Part shown: one piece after another, positions 20,048 to 28,343 of the stretch | Numbering within the stretch: the stretch's first letter is position 1 | How the letters are laid out: every line of letters starts with the position of its first letter | DNA from: Aureitalea sp. L0-47 | Lineage (GTDB): Bacteria > Bacteroidota > Bacteroidia > Flavobacteriales > Flavobacteriaceae | Assembly: GCF_026126405.1 (NCBI RefSeq) | Contig: NZ_JAFMTQ010000005.1 | Location: 62,001 to 126,000, forward strand | Reading direction: 5' to 3' | Length of the DNA stretch: 64,000 nucleotides | The notes under the pieces: generated by a model | The model's database searches: none | The model's input: the letters and a program-made list of their open reading frames with translations, nothing else | Told to the model about the DNA's origin: nothing | Translations under genes and position numbers: made by a program

Positions 20048-20091
20048 ATGACGTTCGTCATAGAATACTCCTTTTCAACTTCATAGCTTCG
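20048..20091 (+). promoter_or_regulatory. CRP/FNR-type operator and promoter before the OFA transporter
   Basis: ATGACGTTCGTCAT (20048-20061) is a perfect 6-2-6 palindrome, or ATGAC-N4-GTCAT. Exactly 22 nt later is TAGCTTCG (20084-20091), one mismatch from TAnnTTTG. The arms match the palindrome before fhs and the spacing is identical. The start codon is 85 nt further on. The geometry fits an activator bound near -41.5; the activator itself is not in this window. Confidence 0.5.
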
Positions 20092-20176
20092 TTCCTGTAA
20101 TCAACGATCAACCAAATTCGTAGTGGCTTGTATTTAGCAGGCTGTTACCCGATGATCCTTCAGAAATTCGAATTCT

Positions 20177-21544
20177 ATGTCGTACTTCAGCAGGGAAAAG
20201 AGTATCGCGAAAGACAAATATAATCGCTGGTACGTCCCTATTGCCGCCCTCAGTATTCACCTGTGTATAGGTCAGATCTACGCCTTCAGCGTTTTCAATA
20301 AACCACTAACAAAAGTCATTGGCATTACCGAACAGATTCCTGAAGACTGGAAGCTAACCGAGTTGGGCTGGATCTTTACGATCGCTTTGTTCACCCTGGG
20401 AGCTTCTGCAGCCACCTTTGGAAAGTGGGTGGAGCGCGTAGGTCCTAGAAAGACCATGTTCGTGGCTGCACTTTGCTTTAGTTCAGGTTTTCTTGTCTCG
20501 GCTCTGGGTATTTACCTTCATCAGCTATGGTTGTTATATGTTGGTTCAGGACTCCTTGGTGGTATTGGACTTGGCCTTGGTTATATCTCACCGGTTAGTA
20601 CCCTGATCAAGTGGTTCCCGGACAGACCGGGTATGGCCACCGGTATGGCTATTATGGGCTTTGGTGGTGGTGCCATGATCGCTTCACCGCTTAGTGTTAA
20701 ACTGATGGAGCACTACGCTACCGCGACTTCAAACGGGGTAATGGAAACCTTTATTACCATGGGGCTCATCTATCTCGTCCTTATGATGTTTGGTTCCATT
20801 ATCGTTCGTATTCCACAGGAAGGATGGAAGCCCAAAGGTTTCAATCCTGAAAAGAAAAAACAGGCTAAGTTGATCACTTCTGAGAATGTATTGGTCGATA
20901 ATGCAATGAAAACTCCACAATTCTGGTTGCTGTTCACCGTCCTTTTGATGAACGTAAGCGCGGGTATCGGTGTACTGGGGCAGGCCAGCGTGATGATACA
21001 GGAGATGTTTAGTGTGAGTAGCGTTGGTGCCGAACTGGCCGTAGACGCAACCGCTGCTGCCATGTTTGTTGGTATACTGAGTTTATTCAATATGGTAGGA
21101 AGGTTCTTCTGGTCGTCACTCAGTGATTATATTGGAAGAAAGAGTACCTACGCCATATTCTTCCTGCTCGGGATCGCCTTATATATAACCGTTCCCTATG
21201 CCGGGAAGATCGGTAGTGTAGTTCTATTCTATGCTGCCTTTGGTATCATAATAAGTATGTATGGAGGTGGATTTGCCACAATTCCGGCCTATCTGAGGGA
21301 TATGTTTGGAACGAAACAAGTAGGAGCCATTCACGGTCGATTACTGCTGGCGTGGAGTTTGGCGGCCATTGTAGGGCCTGTAACGCTGAACTACCTCAGA
21401 GAATACCAGATCGAAGAGCTTGGTAAACCGCCTGCGGAAGTATATAGCTTAACGATGTATCTTATGGCGGGACTGTTGCTAATTGGATTGATCGCTAATT
21501 TGCTAGTGAAACCGGTACATTCGAAATATCACGATAAAAGCTAA
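20177..21544 (+). CDS. OFA-family MFS transporter (oxalate/formate antiporter type)
   Basis: 455 aa with 12 predicted membrane spans. The N-terminus RWYVPIAALSIHLCIGQIYAFSVFNKPL is the OFA-family first helix; the motif after helix 2 is FGKWVERVGPRKTM, and repeat two carries SLSDYIGRKSTYAIFF. OFA members exchange oxalate for formate or carry other small carboxylates. The next gene is formate-tetrahydrofolate ligase, and the two share the same 14-bp operator, so formate or a formate-yielding acid is the likely cargo; this is inference. A lysine-rich cytoplasmic loop (~residues 220-235) divides the two halves. Confidence 0.88.
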   Translation: MSYFSREKSIAKDKYNRWYVPIAALSIHLCIGQIYAFSVFNKPLTKVIGITEQIPEDWKLTELGWIFTIALFTLGASAATFGKWVERVGPRKTMFVAALCFSSGFLVSALGIYLHQLWLLYVGSGLLGGIGLGLGYISPVSTLIKWFPDRPGMATGMAIMGFGGGAMIASPLSVKLMEHYATATSNGVMETFITMGLIYLVLMMFGSIIVRIPQEGWKPKGFNPEKKKQAKLITSENVLVDNAMKTPQFWLLFTVLLMNVSAGIGVLGQASVMIQEMFSVSSVGAELAVDATAAAMFVGILSLFNMVGRFFWSSLSDYIGRKSTYAIFFLLGIALYITVPYAGKIGSVVLFYAAFGIIISMYGGGFATIPAYLRDMFGTKQVGAIHGRLLLAWSLAAIVGPVTLNYLREYQIEELGKPPAEVYSLTMYLMAGLLLIGLIANLLVKPVHSKYHDKS

Positions 21545-21584
21545 CTTTTAGTTATTCTGAAGTTAACTATTCATAAAAACCAAT

Positions 21585-21628
21585 ATGACCTAGGTCATTG
21601 AACAACCAATGACCAAAAACTAATTTTA
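21585..21628 (+). promoter_or_regulatory. CRP/FNR-type operator and promoter before fhs, with a third half-site
   Basis: ATGACCTAGGTCAT (21585-21598) is a perfect 14-bp palindrome with the same arms as the one before the OFA gene. Exactly 22 nt later is TAATTTTA (21621-21628), one mismatch from TAnnTTTG; a TTG at 21598-21600 sits 20 bp before it. The right arm GGTCATTG (21593-21600) also pairs with CAATGACC (21607-21614) across 6 nt. No T-run follows, so it is not a terminator of the upstream gene. Confidence 0.55.
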
Positions 21629-21669
21629 CAGCATTAATTTCCGAAGGAATCTTCGGCTAGAACCATATT

Positions 21670-23337
21670 ATGACCGATTTAGATATTGCACAAAGCGTAA
21701 AGGAAGAGCACATTCGCGACATTGCCACCAAGCTCGACATTTCAGAAGAAAATCTTGAATTCTACGGAACCAATAAAGCCAAGTTACCACTTAGCCTTAT
21801 TGATGAACAGAAAGTAGATGATAACAACCTCATCCTCGTGACTGCCATTACACCTACCCCGGCAGGTGAGGGAAAAACAACGGTTTCCATCGGTTTAGGA
21901 GATGCCTTGTGTGAGATCGGTAAGAAAGCCGTAACAGTGATCCGCGAACCCAGTTTGGGACCTGTTTTTGGGATAAAAGGTGGAGCCGCTGGTGGTGGAT
22001 GGAGCCAGGTGATCCCTATGGCAGATATCAACCTTCACTTCACAGGAGATTTCCACGCCATTGAAAAGGCAAACAATCTTTTAAGCGCATTGATAGAGAA
22101 CAATATTCAGAGTAAGACAAGGAACCTGGGCATCGATCCAAGAACTGTACTCTGGAAGCGTTGTATGGATATGAACGACCGCGGACTGCGGAACATCGTG
22201 GCGGCCCTGGGCGGAAAACCCGGCGGTATCCCCAGGGAAACAGGATTCAATATCACGGCAGCCTCTGAGATAATGGCCATACTTTGTTTAAGCAAGGATT
22301 TCGAAGACCTGAAGAAAAAATGTGGAAGTATTTACGTAGGAGATACCTGGGAAGGCAAGCCTGTCTATGCACGGGACCTGAATGCAGAAGGTGCCATGGC
22401 GGTATTAATGAAAGACGCCATCAAACCTAATTTGGTTCAAACACTGGAAGGAAACCCTGCCATTATTCACGGGGGGCCATTTGCAAATATTGCACAGGGT
22501 ACAAACTCCATTATCGCAACAAAGATGGGACTTAGCCTGGGAGACTATGTGGTCACTGAGGCCGGTTTTGGTGCCGACCTGGGTGCGGAGAAATTCATGA
22601 ACATCAAATGCCGTGAGGCCGAATTATCTCCAAGAACCATCGTTTTAGTAGCCACGATCAGAGCGCTGAAATACCACGGAGGAAAACCATTACAAGAATT
22701 AACGAACGAAGACACAGCCGCGCTAAAAGCCGGATTCCCTAACCTGGAACGTCATATTTCCAGTTTGAAGAGTTTCGGAGTACCGGTTGTGGTAGCCGTA
22801 AATTGTTTCAGCAGTGATACCGAAGCTGAAAAACAGGCTTTGATGGATCATTGTAAATCTCTTGGAATTCCTGTCGCTTTGAGTAACGGTTGGGCCGATG
22901 GTGGAAAAGGTTGTACCGACCTGGCGGAGATTGTTGTGGAAGCCAGCGCGAGTTGTAACAACAAGTTCACACCCACCTACTCGCTGGATGATTCACCAAG
23001 AACGAAAATGGAAAAGATCTGTTCTACCATCTATGGCGCCGAGAACGTTATACTTACGAACAAAGCCAAACGACAACTCAAGCGCTTTGAAGACCTTGGT
23101 TATGGCAGGCTACCTGTTTGTATGGCGAAAACACAAAAGAGTCTCAGTGATGATGAAAAGCAACTGGGTCGTCCGGCGCATTTCGATATTCACATTCGCG
23201 AGTTCGAAATAGCCACGGGAGCAGGTTTCCTTATACCTATTGCAGGAAACATATTGAGAATGCCAGGACTACCAGGAACACCTGCCGCCGAGAAAATAAC
23301 CATTGATGCCGAAGGTAATATCAGCGGTTTGTTTTAG
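21670..23337 (+). CDS. fhs: Formate-tetrahydrofolate ligase
   Basis: 555 aa, the standard length. It joins formate to tetrahydrofolate using ATP to make 10-formyl-THF. The P-loop is TPAGEGKTT (residues 63-71); REPSLGPVFGIKGGAAGGGWSQV, DINLHFTGDFHAI and the C-terminal AGFLIPIAGNILRMPGLPG are all family signatures. It follows the OFA transporter by 125 bp but has its own palindromic operator and promoter. With glyA and the folate pool this lets the cell capture external or internally released formate for one-carbon metabolism. Confidence 0.97.
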   Translation: MTDLDIAQSVKEEHIRDIATKLDISEENLEFYGTNKAKLPLSLIDEQKVDDNNLILVTAITPTPAGEGKTTVSIGLGDALCEIGKKAVTVIREPSLGPVFGIKGGAAGGGWSQVIPMADINLHFTGDFHAIEKANNLLSALIENNIQSKTRNLGIDPRTVLWKRCMDMNDRGLRNIVAALGGKPGGIPRETGFNITAASEIMAILCLSKDFEDLKKKCGSIYVGDTWEGKPVYARDLNAEGAMAVLMKDAIKPNLVQTLEGNPAIIHGGPFANIAQGTNSIIATKMGLSLGDYVVTEAGFGADLGAEKFMNIKCREAELSPRTIVLVATIRALKYHGGKPLQELTNEDTAALKAGFPNLERHISSLKSFGVPVVVAVNCFSSDTEAEKQALMDHCKSLGIPVALSNGWADGGKGCTDLAEIVVEASASCNNKFTPTYSLDDSPRTKMEKICSTIYGAENVILTNKAKRQLKRFEDLGYGRLPVCMAKTQKSLSDDEKQLGRPAHFDIHIREFEIATGAGFLIPIAGNILRMPGLPGTPAAEKITIDAEGNISGLF

Positions 23338-23351
23338 ACGGTAAACTACTG

Positions 23352-24044
23352 TTACTTATTTTCTGATTCCGGCAAATGAACGCCGCGTTTCAGAAGTACT
23401 ATACCCATTACTACCATCCAGAAGATCTTGATGAAGACCATAGGTTTGTAGTATTCGTAGTATTCGGGAAGCCCCATGATGATTGCCATGGCAGCTAGTC
23501 CGAAAAGTGCAGTAAACCATCCCAATAATTGAGGCACCAGCCTCCATTTTACAAATGCATACCCAAGGAGCAGCATCCCTAGTCCGGAAAATACTCGACC
23601 GAAACGAATAAAACAGGTTACATACTGATTGGTATAAAGAATATTGTCCATGAATTCCTGAATTTCTGTTGCCGACTTCCCAGCAGTCATCCCAACACCC
23701 CATGCGCCGTAGTTATAGTAATAGGCATAGGCAATAGCGAGGAAAAAGGTACCAATCACAATCAGTCCGGCTCCCGGTAAGGCGATCACCCGATATGGCT
23801 TTCTGGTCAGACTTGTTGTTAAAGCCATTATGGCAATACCAAAAATCACCCATCCGAAGATGAATACCCGGTATACCCAAATCCAGTACCATACATTTTC
23901 GCCTATGGCCTCAAAATCGGAAGCGACAATATATTCGTTAATGTTATGAGAGGACAAGGCCCAACCCAAAATAATAAATAATGCGGCTACAATAAATGCT
24001 CCTGCTGTAAATCTTGTTTCGAAATCTTTTTTTATCAATGACAT
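23352..24044 (-). CDS. Uncharacterised integral membrane protein (about 6 spans)
   Basis: 230 aa from the ATG at 24044 (MSLIKKDFETRFTAG); an extension of 29 codons upstream has no membrane logic. About six hydrophobic helices are seen, with aromatic-rich loops (ENVWYWIWVYRVFIFGW, AYAYYYNYGAWGVG, PEYYEYYKPMVFIK). No motif recognised. It is divergent from the 24161 gene and both share one palindromic operator at 24096-24109, so it probably belongs to the same physiological response as the sulfite dehydrogenase cluster. Confidence 0.75.
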   Translation of the reverse strand: MSLIKKDFETRFTAGAFIVAALFIILGWALSSHNINEYIVASDFEAIGENVWYWIWVYRVFIFGWVIFGIAIMALTTSLTRKPYRVIALPGAGLIVIGTFFLAIAYAYYYNYGAWGVGMTAGKSATEIQEFMDNILYTNQYVTCFIRFGRVFSGLGMLLLGYAFVKWRLVPQLLGWFTALFGLAAMAIIMGLPEYYEYYKPMVFIKIFWMVVMGIVLLKRGVHLPESENK

Positions 24045-24065
24045 ACCTGTTGAATTTTCAATGCG

Positions 24066-24139
24066 AAAAAATAATGGGTTTTGTTGAGGGGCAACGTAAC
24101 AAATGTTACACAGAGGAATAAATTTGTGCAATTAGTTTG
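24066..24139. promoter_or_regulatory. Bidirectional CRP/FNR-type operator with two outward promoters
   Basis: GTAACAAATGTTAC (24096-24109) has 6-bp inverted arms. On the plus strand TTAGTTTG (24132-24139) lies 22 nt beyond it; on the minus strand TATTTTTT (24073 down to 24066) also lies 22 nt beyond. Each is one mismatch from TAnnTTTG. One operator could therefore serve both divergent genes. The arms match the operator before the sulfite dehydrogenase gene. Confidence 0.5.
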
Positions 24140-24160
24140 TGAATCCGTTACATTTAAGGT

Positions 24161-25198
24161 GTGATTTCTTCTCATATCAATACTGAAATATCTAAGAATA
24201 ATCTGGTTGTTGAAAGGCTTACAGCACTCTGGGCCCTGAATGAGTGTGGCCTTGGAGGATTCATGCATGCCATCAGTTCACCTTTTACCGGGATCCTGGT
24301 AGGGGGTATTTCTATTTTATTGATCACTTTGATCGCCGCAAATGGAAAGTCGGTTTGGCCGGCACTCCTGAAAGCATTAACTATTGTGTTATTGGTGAAA
24401 TTAAGTGTGAGTCCTCATTCTCCTGTCACTTCATACCTAGCAGTATCCTTCCAGGCCTTTATGGGTATGTTATTGTATTCTTTGTTCAAGGTAAACAAGA
24501 TCACAGTACTCGTTCTGGGCTTGCTAACATTTCTTGAATCGGCTTTACAGAAATTACTCACCCTTACTATAATTTACGGGGAATCCCTTTGGGATGCAGT
24601 AGATGTTTATGGTTCCTGGGTGGGCCAAAAAGTATCATTCCTGGATCCGGTATTGTCTTCAAGAACGCTTATCTGGTCCTATGTTATATTCTACGCTATT
24701 GCCGGGATTTTCATGGGAATCGTTATTCTGCGCACGATGACGCTGATGCGTTCGGTAGAAGTAATGGATCAGGAGAAATGGATGGATGCGCACACAGCTA
24801 TTATTCAGCAGAAAAAATCAAAAAGCCCATCCGGTAAAATTCTGATCTTCTGGGCTATTGCCCTTCTTGTCATCCTTCTTCCATTACTCTTTTTTAATTC
24901 TGAATTTTATGGTTGGAAGGCAGGATTATATCTCGTGGCGCGCAGTGCCTTAATTCTCGTATGCTGGTACCTGCTTTTAGGACCACTATTATTGAAAGGG
25001 ATTCAGAAGCTGTTATCTCGACGACGTTCCGCCTATCAGGAGGACATACAGAATACCTTGAGTCTTTTACCACATCTGAGGCTTATATTGAAGTACGCCT
25101 GGAAGGATAGTAGATCGTTAAAAGGAATGAATCGTTTCCAGCATTTTATTGCTCGTAGCATAGTATATAGTGTTTACTTTAATCCTTCGGAATCATGA
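24161..25198 (+). CDS. Uncharacterised polytopic membrane protein paired with a THEP1-like NTPase
   Basis: 345 aa from a GTG start; I found no ATG that keeps the conserved-looking N-terminus. The first ~200 residues hold 5-6 helices starting ALWALNECGLGGFMHAISS followed by PFTGI and VGG, a glycine-rich motif with some look of an ECF-transporter substrate-binding component; three more helices and a basic cytoplasmic C-terminus (KLLSRRRSAYQ) follow. Its stop overlaps the next gene by 4 bp (ATGA), so translation of the two is coupled. The pairing with a P-loop NTPase could mean a transporter or a cofactor-related device, but this is not established. Confidence 0.7.
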   Translation: MISSHINTEISKNNLVVERLTALWALNECGLGGFMHAISSPFTGILVGGISILLITLIAANGKSVWPALLKALTIVLLVKLSVSPHSPVTSYLAVSFQAFMGMLLYSLFKVNKITVLVLGLLTFLESALQKLLTLTIIYGESLWDAVDVYGSWVGQKVSFLDPVLSSRTLIWSYVIFYAIAGIFMGIVILRTMTLMRSVEVMDQEKWMDAHTAIIQQKKSKSPSGKILIFWAIALLVILLPLLFFNSEFYGWKAGLYLVARSALILVCWYLLLGPLLLKGIQKLLSRRRSAYQEDIQNTLSLLPHLRLILKYAWKDSRSLKGMNRFQHFIARSIVYSVYFNPSES

Positions 25199-25710
25199 TC
25201 TATATCCTTAGTGGTGACATCGAGACCGGAAAGAGTACAGCGCTCCTTGACTGGGCGAAGGACCGACAGGACTGCTATGGAATTTTAAGTCCCGGAAACG
25301 CGCCGGGTGAACGCTACTTCCTGGATATTTCTAACAAACGTGAATTTCGAATGGAGGCAGGCTCCGGGGAAGAAGACGCGATAGAGGTAGGACGTTTCAG
25401 ATTCCTTCGATCGGCATTCAGTAAAGCAAATGCCATTCTCAAGAAGGCAACAGATATTTCAGAAGGAATTATAATTATCGACGAACTTGGAAAGCTCGAA
25501 TTGCGAGATGAAGGATTATTTGAATCAGCAAAATTGGCAGTGAAGAAAGCAACGGAAAATGAGATGATCGATTTAATACTCGTGGTGAGAACATCTTTAT
25601 TGGATCAGGTTGTATCGAAATACGGTATTGATAAATACACATTGATCTCAAAAGAATATTTAAAGGATTTTCCAACCAATTGTAACAATAGTTACATAGC
25701 GAAATTTTAA
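25195..25710 (+). CDS. THEP1-like P-loop nucleoside-triphosphatase
   Basis: 171 aa. Walker A is GDIETGKST (residues 7-15), in the place where THEP1 enzymes have their P-loop at the extreme N-terminus, and Walker B is IIIIDELGKLEL (~92-103), the typical THEP1 form. THEP1 family proteins hydrolyse ATP/GTP in vitro with unclear physiological role. It overlaps the upstream membrane-protein gene by 4 bp and ends 48 bp before the SorA-like gene; the operator for that gene lies in its last codons. MobB-like function is an alternative because a molybdenum enzyme follows, but its typical motifs are not seen. Confidence 0.8.
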   Translation: MIYILSGDIETGKSTALLDWAKDRQDCYGILSPGNAPGERYFLDISNKREFRMEAGSGEEDAIEVGRFRFLRSAFSKANAILKKATDISEGIIIIDELGKLELRDEGLFESAKLAVKKATENEMIDLILVVRTSLLDQVVSKYGIDKYTLISKEYLKDFPTNCNNSYIAKF

Positions 25711-25725
25711 GATATCGTATCTTGT
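25682..25725 (+). promoter_or_regulatory. CRP/FNR-type operator before the sulfite dehydrogenase gene
   Basis: TGTAACAATAGTTACA (25681-25696) is a perfect palindrome with 6-bp arms; its core GTAAC-N4-GTTAC (25682-25695) equals that at 24096-24109. Exactly 22 nt beyond the core is TATCTTGT (25718-25725), a looser -7 match with two mismatches. It overlaps the 3' end of the NTPase gene and lies 63 nt before the TTG start. Confidence 0.5.
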
Positions 25726-25758: not shown

Positions 25759-26979
25759 TTGAAGAGAAGAGATTTCGTAAAAAAAGCGACCCTAACGTCC
25801 CTAACAGCAGTTATAGGAGCGGAAATCGTATATGGGTCGAAATTACTGGAAGGCTATATTCCATTGGCGCTTCAGGATCCGGATCCATTCAAGATGTTCA
25901 ACAAGCATCCTGAAATGGTGGTTCTAAACGACAAGCCATGGAATATCGAAGCGCAGGCACATTTGCTTGATGATAAAATTACGCCGAACGCCAAAATGTT
26001 CATTAGGAATAATGGACACGTCCCTGAAGGAATAGATGCGGCCTCTTGGACACTTACCATCGATGGGGAATCCGTGACGAGGGAAAAGACTTATACACTT
26101 TCAGAATTGAAATCGAAGTTCGAACAGCACACTTATCAACTCGCCCTTGAATGCGGTGGTAACGGAAGAAGTGAATTCGACCCGCCTGCTAAAGGAAATC
26201 AGTGGACAGTGGGTGCCGTACATTGCGCATCCTGGACCGGAGTTCGTTTACGGGATGTACTGGAAGATGCTGGCATAAAAAGCAATGCCGTGTATATTGG
26301 ATATCACGCTGTTGATAAACATTTGAGCGGTGACCCTAAGAAAGAACCAATTTCGCGAGGTTGCCCGATGGCCAAGGCGCTTCAGGATGAAACCTTACTG
26401 GCCTTTAAGATGAATGGAGAGGATATTCCTCTGGTTCATGGTTATCCCCTTCGCCTGGTGGCGGGTGGCTGGCCTGCTTCTGTTTCCGGGAAATGGGTAA
26501 ACAGGATCAGTATAAGAGATAAGGTACACGACGGTACAAAAATGACAGGTACCGCATATCGAGTACCATGTGAGCCGGTTGCGCCGGGTGAAAAGGTGAA
26601 AGATGAGGATATGTGTATTATTGAATCCATGCCTGTGAAGTCACTTATCACCTACCCTAAAACAGGAGCCATGATAAGTAAGAACAAAGCATTGAAGATA
26701 AGAGGGCATGCCTGGGCCGGGGAATTGGAAGTGGCTAAAATGGAGTATTCCATTGATTTCGGATCAACCTGGACGGAATGTGCCGTTGAAAAGCCGGCGA
26801 ATCGTTTAGCTTGGCAACATTTTTCGGCGGAAGTGAAATTTCCGAAGAAAGGATATTATGAGGTTTGGGCGCGAGCCACAGACAGCAGAGGCACTTCGCA
26901 GCCTATGCTATTGCCGGGCTGGAACCCCAAAGGGTATTTGAATAATGCCTGTCATCGAATTGCCGTAAAAGTGAAGTAA
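25759..26979 (+). CDS. Molybdopterin-dependent sulfite dehydrogenase (SorA-like), TTG start
   Basis: 406 aa. The only start after the in-frame stop at 25747 is TTG at 25759, which directly precedes a Tat signal (KRRDFVKKATLTSLTAVIG). Oxidoreductase molybdopterin-binding domain: LALECGGNGRSEF supplies the molybdenum-ligating Cys132, then HCASWTGVRLRDVLEDAG, LVHGYPLRLVAGGWPA and SGKWVNRI. The C-terminal ~120 residues form the Mo-co dimerisation domain of sulfite oxidases (KALKIRGHAWAGE, VWARATDSRGTSQP). It should oxidise sulfite in the periplasm and pass electrons to the c-type cytochrome encoded immediately downstream. Confidence 0.9.
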   Translation: MKRRDFVKKATLTSLTAVIGAEIVYGSKLLEGYIPLALQDPDPFKMFNKHPEMVVLNDKPWNIEAQAHLLDDKITPNAKMFIRNNGHVPEGIDAASWTLTIDGESVTREKTYTLSELKSKFEQHTYQLALECGGNGRSEFDPPAKGNQWTVGAVHCASWTGVRLRDVLEDAGIKSNAVYIGYHAVDKHLSGDPKKEPISRGCPMAKALQDETLLAFKMNGEDIPLVHGYPLRLVAGGWPASVSGKWVNRISIRDKVHDGTKMTGTAYRVPCEPVAPGEKVKDEDMCIIESMPVKSLITYPKTGAMISKNKALKIRGHAWAGELEVAKMEYSIDFGSTWTECAVEKPANRLAWQHFSAEVKFPKKGYYEVWARATDSRGTSQPMLLPGWNPKGYLNNACHRIAVKVK

Positions 26980-27453
26980 ATGAGTAAGGAACCTTCCTTT
27001 CGGTCAAATGTGCGCAAAGTATACCAGATGTTATTCCTGGTATTCGCGATGTGCGTTGTGGTTGGGGGCGGAATGATCTATTTAATGGTAAATCCGAATG
27101 CATTGGATCCAACTGCACCCTACGAGGCCGTAGTGGAAATTCCGGAAGTAATAGATGAGAATCTCATTGAGAATGGAATACACGTTCGAACTGGACTGGT
27201 TGAAGCTGATGGCCTTATGGAAGTTGTAAATAACTGTACGGCTTGTCATTCAGCGAAAATAGTAACTCAGAACAGGATGAACACTGAACGCTGGAATGCA
27301 ACTATTGTATGGATGCAGGAAACACAAAATCTCTGGGACCTGGGGAAAAACCAGGAGATAATTGTTAACTATTTAGTGACCAATTATCCACCAAAGAAAA
27401 AAGGTAGGCGTGAAGTCCTAACCGATATTGACTGGTATGAACTAACAGATTGA
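26980..27453 (+). CDS. Membrane-anchored monohaem cytochrome c, SorB-like
   Basis: 157 aa, starting on the base after the upstream stop. One N-terminal membrane anchor (VYQMLFLVFAMCVVVGGGMIYLM) is followed by a soluble domain with a single haem-binding CTACH (residues 86-90); a likely axial methionine is in IVWMQETQ. The genetic arrangement SorA-cytochrome c is known for sulfite dehydrogenases, where the cytochrome accepts electrons from the molybdenum subunit and passes them to the respiratory chain. Confidence 0.88.
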   Translation: MSKEPSFRSNVRKVYQMLFLVFAMCVVVGGGMIYLMVNPNALDPTAPYEAVVEIPEVIDENLIENGIHVRTGLVEADGLMEVVNNCTACHSAKIVTQNRMNTERWNATIVWMQETQNLWDLGKNQEIIVNYLVTNYPPKKKGRREVLTDIDWYELTD

Positions 27454-27467
27454 AAAATTTAATTGAA

Positions 27468-28343
27468 ATGGAAAAATATTTAGACGCATTTGTAAATTCT
27501 TTTATTAATACCCTTAACTGGACCTGGGATGCCATTACCTTCGATGTGCCCTGGTATACTAATTATTTCTGGGGCCTGGTAGTTATTTCGCTTTTTGTAT
27601 GGCTACTGGAGATCGCTTTCCCATGGAGGAAGGACCAGGCTATCTTTAGACGAGACTTCTGGCTGGATGCCTTCTATATGTTCTTTAACTTCTTCATATT
27701 CGCCATTGTAATAAGTGGAGTGTATGAGTTACTTGGAGTCCTATTTGGCGAGTTCAATGTAACTGCAAAATCTTTTGCCATAATAGACATGGCCAACTGG
27801 TCACCCTATCTGCAGTTGTTTGTATTCTTCATTATCCTGGATTTTGTACAATGGTTCACACATGTACTCCTGCACCGTTATAAATTCCTGTGGAATTTTC
27901 ACAAGGTGCACCACAGTGTGAAAGAAATGGGTTTTGCTGCGCATTTACGCTATCACTGGATGGAAAACGTATTGTACAAACCTCTTAAAACCTTCGGTGT
28001 TATGATCTTAGGTGGTTTTGAACCTGAACAGGCGTACATTGTACATTTCATCACTATTGCTATTGGCCATTTAAACCATGCCAATATCAAGATTACCTGG
28101 GGTCCGCTCAAATATATCTTCAACAATCCTGTAATGCACTTGTACCACCACGCGTATCACCTTCCTAAGGGCACGCACGGTGTGAATTACGGAATTAGCT
28201 TAAGTCTTTGGGATTATATATTTAAAACAAACTATATCCCTGAAGACAGTGGTACTATTGAAATAGGATTTAAAGGAGATGATAAGTTCCCACAGGATTT
28301 CATTCATCAAAACCTCTACGGCTTCACGAAGGATAAGTCGTAA
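27468..28343 (+). CDS. Sterol desaturase / fatty acid hydroxylase superfamily membrane protein
   Basis: 291 aa from the ATG at 27468 (MEKYLDAF); a TTG six codons earlier overlaps the preceding stop. Four or more membrane helices and the eight-histidine pattern of di-iron hydroxylases: HVLLH, NFHKVHH and HLYHHAYH. It belongs to the fatty acid hydroxylase family (PF04116). It follows the SorA/SorB genes by 14 bp and is very likely co-transcribed, yet a lipid hydroxylase has no known part in sulfite oxidation; it may modify a sulfonate- or membrane-related lipid. Substrate unknown. Confidence 0.85.
   Translation: MEKYLDAFVNSFINTLNWTWDAITFDVPWYTNYFWGLVVISLFVWLLEIAFPWRKDQAIFRRDFWLDAFYMFFNFFIFAIVISGVYELLGVLFGEFNVTAKSFAIIDMANWSPYLQLFVFFIILDFVQWFTHVLLHRYKFLWNFHKVHHSVKEMGFAAHLRYHWMENVLYKPLKTFGVMILGGFEPEQAYIVHFITIAIGHLNHANIKITWGPLKYIFNNPVMHLYHHAYHLPKGTHGVNYGISLSLWDYIFKTNYIPEDSGTIEIGFKGDDKFPQDFIHQNLYGFTKDKS

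Follow-up and report, generated by a model that had tools for sequence, protein, structure and literature searches.

The regulons of Escherichia coli FNR and similar oxygen regulators join TGAY-N4-RTCA half-sites to low-oxygen genes. NtcA, which responds to 2-oxoglutarate, uses a class II site, GTAN8TAC, centred near −41.5, according to the accessible part of its description (PMC3898017). The available text on HcpR2 associates the loss of Glu181 with GTAAC and gives Ser or Gln at position 181 in three species (PMC1274295). Here, we analysed a stretch of 64,000 nucleotides (nt) from Aureitalea sp. L0-47 (contig NZ_JAFMTQ010000005.1, positions 62,001 to 126,000), hereafter called the window, in which four palindromes stand at a fixed distance from boxes of the sigma-factor type. 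Their strict class II architecture is conserved, of a known kind, and undescribed in the literature searched. Very probably, two Crp/Fnr activators work from class II operators of this design, one (encoded on contig C11) on GTAAC and the other (on contig C64) on ATGAY, and their two regulons adjoin in the window.

Flavobacteriaceae are abundant marine heterotrophs. Among the matches listed in searches of the open-licence PMC literature, we found no description of the control of sulfide oxidation in this family, and no Crp/Fnr sulfur regulator in Bacteroidota or 22-nt spacing rule. Transcripts of sqr and pdo were raised after sulfide addition, with Bacteroidota among the phyla (PMC12345210); the available text of that study does not treat regulators, and the words 'regulator' and 'Crp' are absent from it. 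The available text of PMC12531629 has no bearing on such control. The available text of a review on reactive sulfur names CstR, SqrR, BigR, PigP, and FisR and no Crp/Fnr protein; in the same text, the word FNR is absent and Crp occurs twice, both times in the reference list (PMC9774590).

Results

Palindromes and spacing in the window

Four perfect 5-4-5 inverted repeats were confirmed at 20048..20061 (ATGACGTTCGTCAT), 21585..21598 (ATGACCTAGGTCAT), 24096..24109 (GTAACAAATGTTAC), and 25682..25695 (GTAACAATAGTTAC). In all five promoter directions, with the repeat at 24096 read both ways, an 8-mer related to TAnnTTTG followed after exactly 22 nt, and the mismatch counts of the preliminary description also held. 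One mismatch was found in TAGCTTCG (20084..20091, plus strand), in TAATTTTA (21621..21628, plus), in TATTTTTT (24066..24073, minus, 22 nt from the 24096 operator), and in TTAGTTTG (24132..24139, plus), a weak −7-like element of uncertain use, and two mismatches in TATCTTGT (25718..25725, plus). The sigma-A box TAnnTTTG of Flavobacterium psychrophilum occupies −12 to −5 in the accessible text of PMC9723704. Computed with this −7 position, the operator spans −48 to −35 with its centre at −41.5, which agrees with the class II activator place near −41 that had been proposed. With a two-fold operator predicted near −41.5 at a fixed distance from a sigma-factor box, the sites have the layout of class II promoters. 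By analogy with F. psychrophilum, transcription would start at approximately 20096, 21633, 24061 (minus strand), and 25730.

As had been anticipated, chance palindromes of this shape are common: 83 perfect ones were counted in the window, and the shape alone is therefore weak evidence. Only the four sites among these 83 had ATGAC/GTCAT or GTAAC/GTTAC arms. We modelled the window by 400 first-order Markov sequences; in these, palindromes with ATGAC or GTAAC arms had a mean of 0.12 and a maximum of 2, and never reached the 4 of the window; the combination of these arms with N22 and TAnnTT, present 4 times in the window, occurred in none of the 400. Chance palindromes were rejected as an explanation by this test and by the arm-control and offset tests below. 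The earlier argument from shared arm sequence is refined in one respect: shape and spacing are common to all four sites, but the arms split into two classes, GTAAC (24096 and 25682) and ATGAC (20048 and 21585). This split, together with the comparisons below, suggests two different operators.

The spacing rule in the genome and in relatives

The genome of the strain comprises 3.38 Mb in 67 contigs. All 11 exact GTAAC and 10 exact ATGAC sites in it were taken, unselected for a −7 box. TAnnTT stood at offset 22 in 7 of the 11 and 7 of the 10, respectively, and the mean over the remaining offsets from 5 to 59 was 0.31 (GTAAC) and 0.11 (ATGAC). Counting against control patterns, one of two refutation tests of the preliminary description that were run, did not refute it and gave 7 places for GTAAC-N22-TAnnTT and none for its control, and 57 places for TGAYN4RTCA-N23-TAnnTT against 4 for the reversed control. 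The exact ATGACN4GTCAT palindrome occurred at 10 places (control, 4). Across 199 genomes of the family, the totals from hand-entered counts were 470 against 27 for GTAAC-N22-TAnnTT (the control being counted by hand) and 4120 against 600 for TGAYN4RTCA-N23-TAnnTT.

The class II geometry that had been postulated for the Crp/Fnr-type operators is supported by one and the same spacing throughout the genome and the family. In relatives, 142 distinct GTAAC-N4-GTTAC sites were read in both directions, and TAnnTTTG with at most one mismatch stood at offset 22 in 104 of these 284 directions, against a mean of 3.3 at other offsets. We further scanned all 2400 distinct perfect 5-4-5 palindromes of the relatives' loci for TAnnTTTG (at most one mismatch) at offset 22. 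The strongest excess was seen for the arms GTAAC (142 sites, 104 hits), ATGAC (14, 12), ATGAT (19, 11), and CTGAT (6, 5); GTGAC, with 2 hits at 2 sites, was too rare to weigh, and each of the next ten arms had at most 2 hits. The scan resolves two classes, GTAAC-N4-GTTAC and TGAY-N4-RTCA.

At the scale of the phylum, 44 of 296 genomes matched the spacing rule. By hand count, the family supplied 18 of its 30 genomes, the rest of the order 1 of 6, and the rest of the class 12 of 37, with 25 matches to the control's 10 and with three genomes giving 15 of the 25. Other classes supplied 13 of 223; there, 13 matches stood against 17 for the control, and beyond the class the rule left no trace.

GTAAC sites and the sulfur genes

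The operator at 25682 lies within the 3′ end of the open reading frame (ORF) 25195-25710 and precedes the gene at 25759..26979 (plus strand), which encodes a molybdopterin protein resembling SorA-type sulfite oxidases or dehydrogenases (PF00174 and PF03404). The Pfam domains were found, but the score of 240.2 bits was below the cut-off of 600; hence the product is called sulfite-oxidase-like and not a certified SorA. Conservation in relatives, on which the preliminary description had staked its reading, was observed: the exact palindrome was present within 300 nt upstream in 54 of 80 sulfite-oxidase loci; 2 of the 80 have less than 300 nt of upstream sequence. Of 59 control arms composed of the same letters as GTAAC, ATGAC was found at 3 loci and the other 58 at none. 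When 53 promoters (the window and 52 relatives) were aligned on the palindrome, offset 22 was T in 50, offset 23 was A in 44, offsets 26 and 27 were T in 49 and 52, respectively, and offset 28 was T in 26 and G in 18. The two mismatches of TATCTTGT are therefore normal for a sulfite oxidase promoter.

Five of the 11 GTAAC sites of the genome lie within 9.3 kb of contig C11, around a Crp/Fnr gene. Encoded in this cluster are TauE, a metallo-beta-lactamase-rhodanese protein, a peroxiredoxin, a rhodanese, a protein with a Tll0287-like domain and a weak cytochrome c match, a TPMT-like methyltransferase, an FAD oxidoreductase, and HlyD/OEP efflux parts. From its domains, we read the metallo-beta-lactamase-rhodanese protein as a putative persulfide dioxygenase. 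The FAD oxidoreductase had a match to type III sulfide quinone reductase, but its score of 229.9 did not reach the cut-off of 525. The sixth site is upstream of a second persulfide-dioxygenase-like gene, where the −7 match has 2 mismatches, and one further site stands before a small gene and then an efflux-type gene, as judged by eye. Two more are the sites of the window, 24096 and 25682, which would belong to a regulon for the oxidation of sulfide, persulfide, and sulfite centred on the C11 Crp/Fnr gene. Around the regulator gene in relatives, 42 GTAAC sites were found in 22 of the 30 best loci, and each of the other 59 arms was found at most twice. In a sample of 30 genomes with one GTAAC site each, in which genes were judged by eye alone, the downstream gene looked like a sulfur-regulon type in 20: sulfite oxidase, 23352-like, dioxygenase, TauE, peroxiredoxin, rhodanese, OEP efflux, and SulP.

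The HlyD/OEP efflux operon of the C11 cluster has both GTAAC and TGAY sites upstream (L015:5613 = C11:718612; C11:718845), and is a possible meeting point of both regulons.

Predicted facing promoters around one operator

The operator at 24096 faces a gene on the minus strand (23352..24044) for an unnamed membrane protein without a Pfam or NCBIfam match, which is a probable member of the GTAAC regulon. A 23352-like gene was present at 33 of the 80 relatives' loci, and in 28 of these it and the sulfite oxidase gene were divergent. The exact palindrome stood between the divergent genes in 24 of the 28, as a single copy in 22; around this lone palindrome, TAnnTT was located exactly 22 nt away on both sides in 11 of the 22. 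In those 11 relatives, one operator would serve two facing promoters. Loci L039 and L062 have two palindromes, each facing one gene. The window resembles this split form, with an operator on each side, but two genes lie in between: one for a membrane protein without a Pfam or NCBIfam family (24161..25198, plus) and, adjoining it, one for an NTPase_1-like protein (25195..25710, plus; PF03266, 24.4 bits, cut-off 23.9). Neither gave a tblastn hit (E ≤ 1e−8) at the sulfite-oxidase loci of the 80 relatives, so this pair looks like an insertion. For the same reason, the plus-direction promoter from 24096 (TTAGTTTG) is without comparative support; if used, this box would serve the extra pair.

Downstream of the sulfite oxidase gene, a small protein without a Pfam match (26980..27453, plus) carries a CxxCH haem-type motif by eye, and a relative of it follows the sulfite oxidase gene at all 80 loci. 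The next gene (27450..28343, plus) encodes a protein of the fatty acid hydroxylase family (Pfam), and a relative of this gene is near the sulfite oxidase gene at 71 of the 80.

TGAY sites and the low-oxygen genes

From their arms and from relatives, the ATGAC-N4-GTCAT operators at 20048 and 21585 are predicted to be of the TGAY-N4-RTCA low-oxygen class, and they would belong to this regulon together with the two genes that follow them. The first gene (20177..21544, plus), at first taken for a formate transporter, encodes a major facilitator superfamily (MFS) protein (PF07690) that by curated cut-offs fits the L-lactate MFS (SfMCT) family better (340.1 bits, cut-off 320). The oxalate/formate antiporter label failed for both families (193.9 against 374.85 and 147.5 against 335). 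The second gene (21670..23337, plus) encodes formate-tetrahydrofolate ligase (Fhs; PF01268, 833 bits).

By a mechanical ORF rule, 47 of the 57 TGAY sites of the genome were intergenic. An ORF of at least 60 amino acids started 8-135 nt past the −7 box at 51 of the 57 (median, 34), which alone is modest evidence because about half of random places in the window behaved likewise (2042 of 4000). The crowding of such starts at 20-60 nt is better evidence: it was seen at 40 of the 57 sites, and at 863 of the 4000 random places. Pfam families were assigned to 17 of 20 chosen proteins behind TGAY sites. Among them were FixS/CcoS and COX1-FixO (CcoNO) for cbb3 oxidase, PFOR parts, HypA and a HoxE/F-like protein, which are hydrogenase-related, and also PPDK, a Usp, Hsp20, alanine dehydrogenase, and a beta-eliminating lyase. 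The cbb3 oxidase was strongly induced in F. psychrophilum under oxygen limitation, as far as the available text reports (PMC9723704). Both ATGAC sites keep their arms and −7 box in the near relative L032, and their inner 4 nt differ.

On contig C64, it is a TGAY site and not a GTAAC site that precedes the gene of an FAD oxidoreductase, which looks SQR-like by eye (L291:3233-4504; PF07992).

Candidate regulators

Three HTH_Crp_2 proteins were found in the genome, on C11, C4, and C64. The C11 regulator has both domains of a Crp/Fnr protein, a cNMP-binding-like domain (PF00027, 38.2 bits, cut-off 27.5) and HTH_Crp_2 (PF13545, 36.6 bits, cut-off 27). Its best Foldseek matches were Crp/Fnr structures, which confirmed the fold; the AlphaFold model had a mean predicted local distance difference test score of 81.0 and a predicted template modelling score of 0.60. 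The recognition segments of the three are SRVVISR (C11), AREVISR (C4), and ATESLIR (C64). The C11 protein is without Glu181 and aligns with NtcA at that position. In the 30 best-matching regulators, R182-V183 and the cysteines C77, C83, and C84 were invariant. Judging from alignments and from the anatomy of Crp, these cysteines would stand approximately where cAMP-binding relatives hold the ligand loop.

The C64 protein, a fusion of a receiver domain with Crp, is alone among the three in having a T-E pair, and its gene lies among TGAY sites. It has one cysteine, in the receiver domain, and is therefore not regarded as an iron-sulfur FNR, in which cysteines ligate a [4Fe-4S] cluster. The C4 protein keeps the R-E pair. 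By Crp/Fnr recognition rules, we expect T-E to go with ATGAY, where the TGA has no G in front of it, and R-E with GTGAC. On these residues, the C11 protein would pair with GTAAC and the C64 protein with ATGAC, and the receiver-Crp fusion is likely to be the regulator of the TGAY class.

Directly downstream of the C4 Crp-like gene and also upstream of a gene for a small membrane protein, there is a GTGAC-N4-GTCAC site with TAnnTT at 22 nt (C4:93206; L021:2735), perhaps of a third operator class.

The C11-type regulator protein was present in 173 of the 199 family genomes, paralogues included, and it co-occurs with its GTAAC sites. By hand-entered counts, at least one GTAAC-N22-TAnnTT site was found in 109 of 111 genomes with a close relative of the regulator (E ≤ 1e−76), two or more of them in 97. 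Genomes with weaker matches to the regulator had such a site in 28 of 41 and 6 of 21 cases, and those with no match in 2 of 26.

Discussion

Here, we propose a model with two adjoining regulons of common promoter geometry, in which a 5-4-5 palindrome would be followed after exactly 22 nt by TAnnTTTG and be centred at −41.5. The Crp/Fnr protein whose gene lies in the sulfide-oxidation cluster of C11 would bind GTAAC-N4-GTTAC and turn on its own gene together with the SQR-like and persulfide-dioxygenase-like genes. Its targets in the window would be the operon of the sulfite oxidase (25759) and, divergent from it, the membrane protein gene (23352). Such a regulon would lead from sulfide via persulfide and sulfite to sulfate, and its signal may be sulfide or persulfide, read by the three invariant cysteines. 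The receiver-Crp fusion, encoded among Usp-like genes on C64, would bind ATGAY-N4-RTCAT and turn on low-oxygen genes, including the lactate-type transporter and Fhs of the window. The preliminary description had proposed a single formate and sulfite block. Its Crp/Fnr-type operators are supported, but one contiguous block is not: the GTAAC and ATGAC sites each go with a gene set, and probably a regulator, of their own.

Several observations weigh against this model. The bare GTAACN4GTTAC palindrome was found at 11 places of the genome and its reversed control at 12, so it is not enriched genome-wide, and only its combination with the −7 box is. When 2 mismatches were allowed in GTAAC-N22-TAnnTT, the signal was lost (44 against 66 for the control). 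Two of the 11 GTAAC sites (C11:104856 and C44:101581) lie within ORFs and look like chance. No exact palindrome was present within 300 nt upstream at 26 of the 80 sulfite-oxidase loci, and in the sample of 30 genomes, 10 GTAAC sites led to no gene that could be recognised by eye, 3 of the 10 having no ORF behind them. The counts of regulator and site in the same genomes ignore phylogeny. On the low-oxygen side, the exact ATGAC site was found before Fhs in 1 of 29 relatives. Of 29 other Fhs loci, 5 had a relaxed site together with its −7 box (control pattern with the box, none), and 3 more had a palindrome but no box; the site of the transporter with its −7 box was found in none of the 23 distant MFS relatives examined. 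ATGAY sites were also frequent (mean, 14.6) in 96 genomes outside the receiver-Crp group, a set that excludes the 20 listed no-match genomes and includes 22 further no-match genomes; other species may therefore use another protein. Finally, AlphaFold confidence was low at residues 81-89, where two cysteines sit, and for this reason persulfide sensing is put forward as a hypothesis. That a flavobacterial Crp/Fnr protein senses sulfide or persulfide directly and switches the whole sulfide-to-sulfate pathway from class II promoters is a tentative suggestion, which we rate slightly short of an even chance.

A single Crp/Fnr regulator could in principle act at all four sites as one block, with GTAAC and ATGAC as variants of one degenerate motif. 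Both arm classes share the 5-4-5 shape and the 22-nt spacing, the sites adjoin in the window, and one efflux operon has both kinds upstream. The gene sets differ, however, with sulfur genes for GTAAC and low-oxygen genes for ATGAY; the GTAAC sites track the C11 regulator from genome to genome; TGAY sites can be common where GTAAC is absent (77 against 0 in genome G025); and the three Crp proteins have recognition residues that differ as expected. We therefore regard a single regulator as very improbable.

Marginally less probable still is that the GTAAC sites belong to a nitrosative-stress regulator of the HcpR2 type, whose published consensus, GTAACnnnnGTTAC, is identical and which is reported in Bacteroides in the available text (PMC1274295). 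The recognisable genes behind the sites are those of sulfur oxidation, and no hcp was seen by eye downstream of the sites of this genome or of the 30-genome sample, no hcp model having been run. The same text reports Pro181, whereas the C11-type protein has Val in 30 of 30, with the numbering transferred by eye via the S-R pair, and membership in HcpR2 was rejected at this recognition residue.

Sites of repressors tolerate variable positions. Least probable of all is that the C11 protein is a repressor or dual regulator at the GTAAC sites and not a class II activator: with 22 nt between it and the −7 box, the operator does cover the place of a −33 element, and the known sulfide regulators CstR and SqrR/BigR are repressors in the available text of PMC9774590, but contact with RNA polymerase calls for just such a rigid spacing, which was seen at offset 22 in 104 of 284 directions, and a centre at −41.5 is the classic place of an activator.

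If the model of two activators holds, the family-wide rule of palindrome, 22 nt, and TAnnTTTG would predict transcription start sites to the base, and operator and promoter together would separate the sulfur regulon from the low-oxygen regulon. Persulfide sensing through three invariant cysteines would, if true, place the Crp/Fnr family among the known sensors of reactive sulfur. An operator with two faces between divergent genes would provide a compact class II test case in a phylum with unusual sigma-factor promoter boxes.

The predicted ATGAY regulon is similar to that of E. coli FNR in its TGAY-N4-RTCA half-sites and low-oxygen gene set. The C11 protein is comparable to CstR, SqrR/BigR, and FisR in that it would control genes of sulfide oxidation or detoxification, with cysteines that are sensors there and candidates here; unlike it, these regulators are of the CsoR, ArsR, and Fis families, as given in the available text of PMC9774590. 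With HcpR2, it shares the protein superfamily and the operator consensus, and differs in having Val for Pro181 and in its recognisable genes, which are SQR-, persulfide-dioxygenase-, and sulfite-oxidase-like; for HcpR2, the accessible text predicts hcp as the core target (PMC1274295). The C11 regulator scored 44.9 bits against the NtcA equivalog, below the cut-off of 244.95, and it differs from NtcA of cyanobacteria in its phylum, in the TAnnTTTG −7 box, in having sulfur and not nitrogen genes, and in the three invariant cysteines. It resembles NtcA in an operator, GTAAC-N4-GTTAC, that contains GTA-N8-TAC at the same centre, and in its R-V recognition residues, with the helix TSRVVISR aligned with STRVTVTR.

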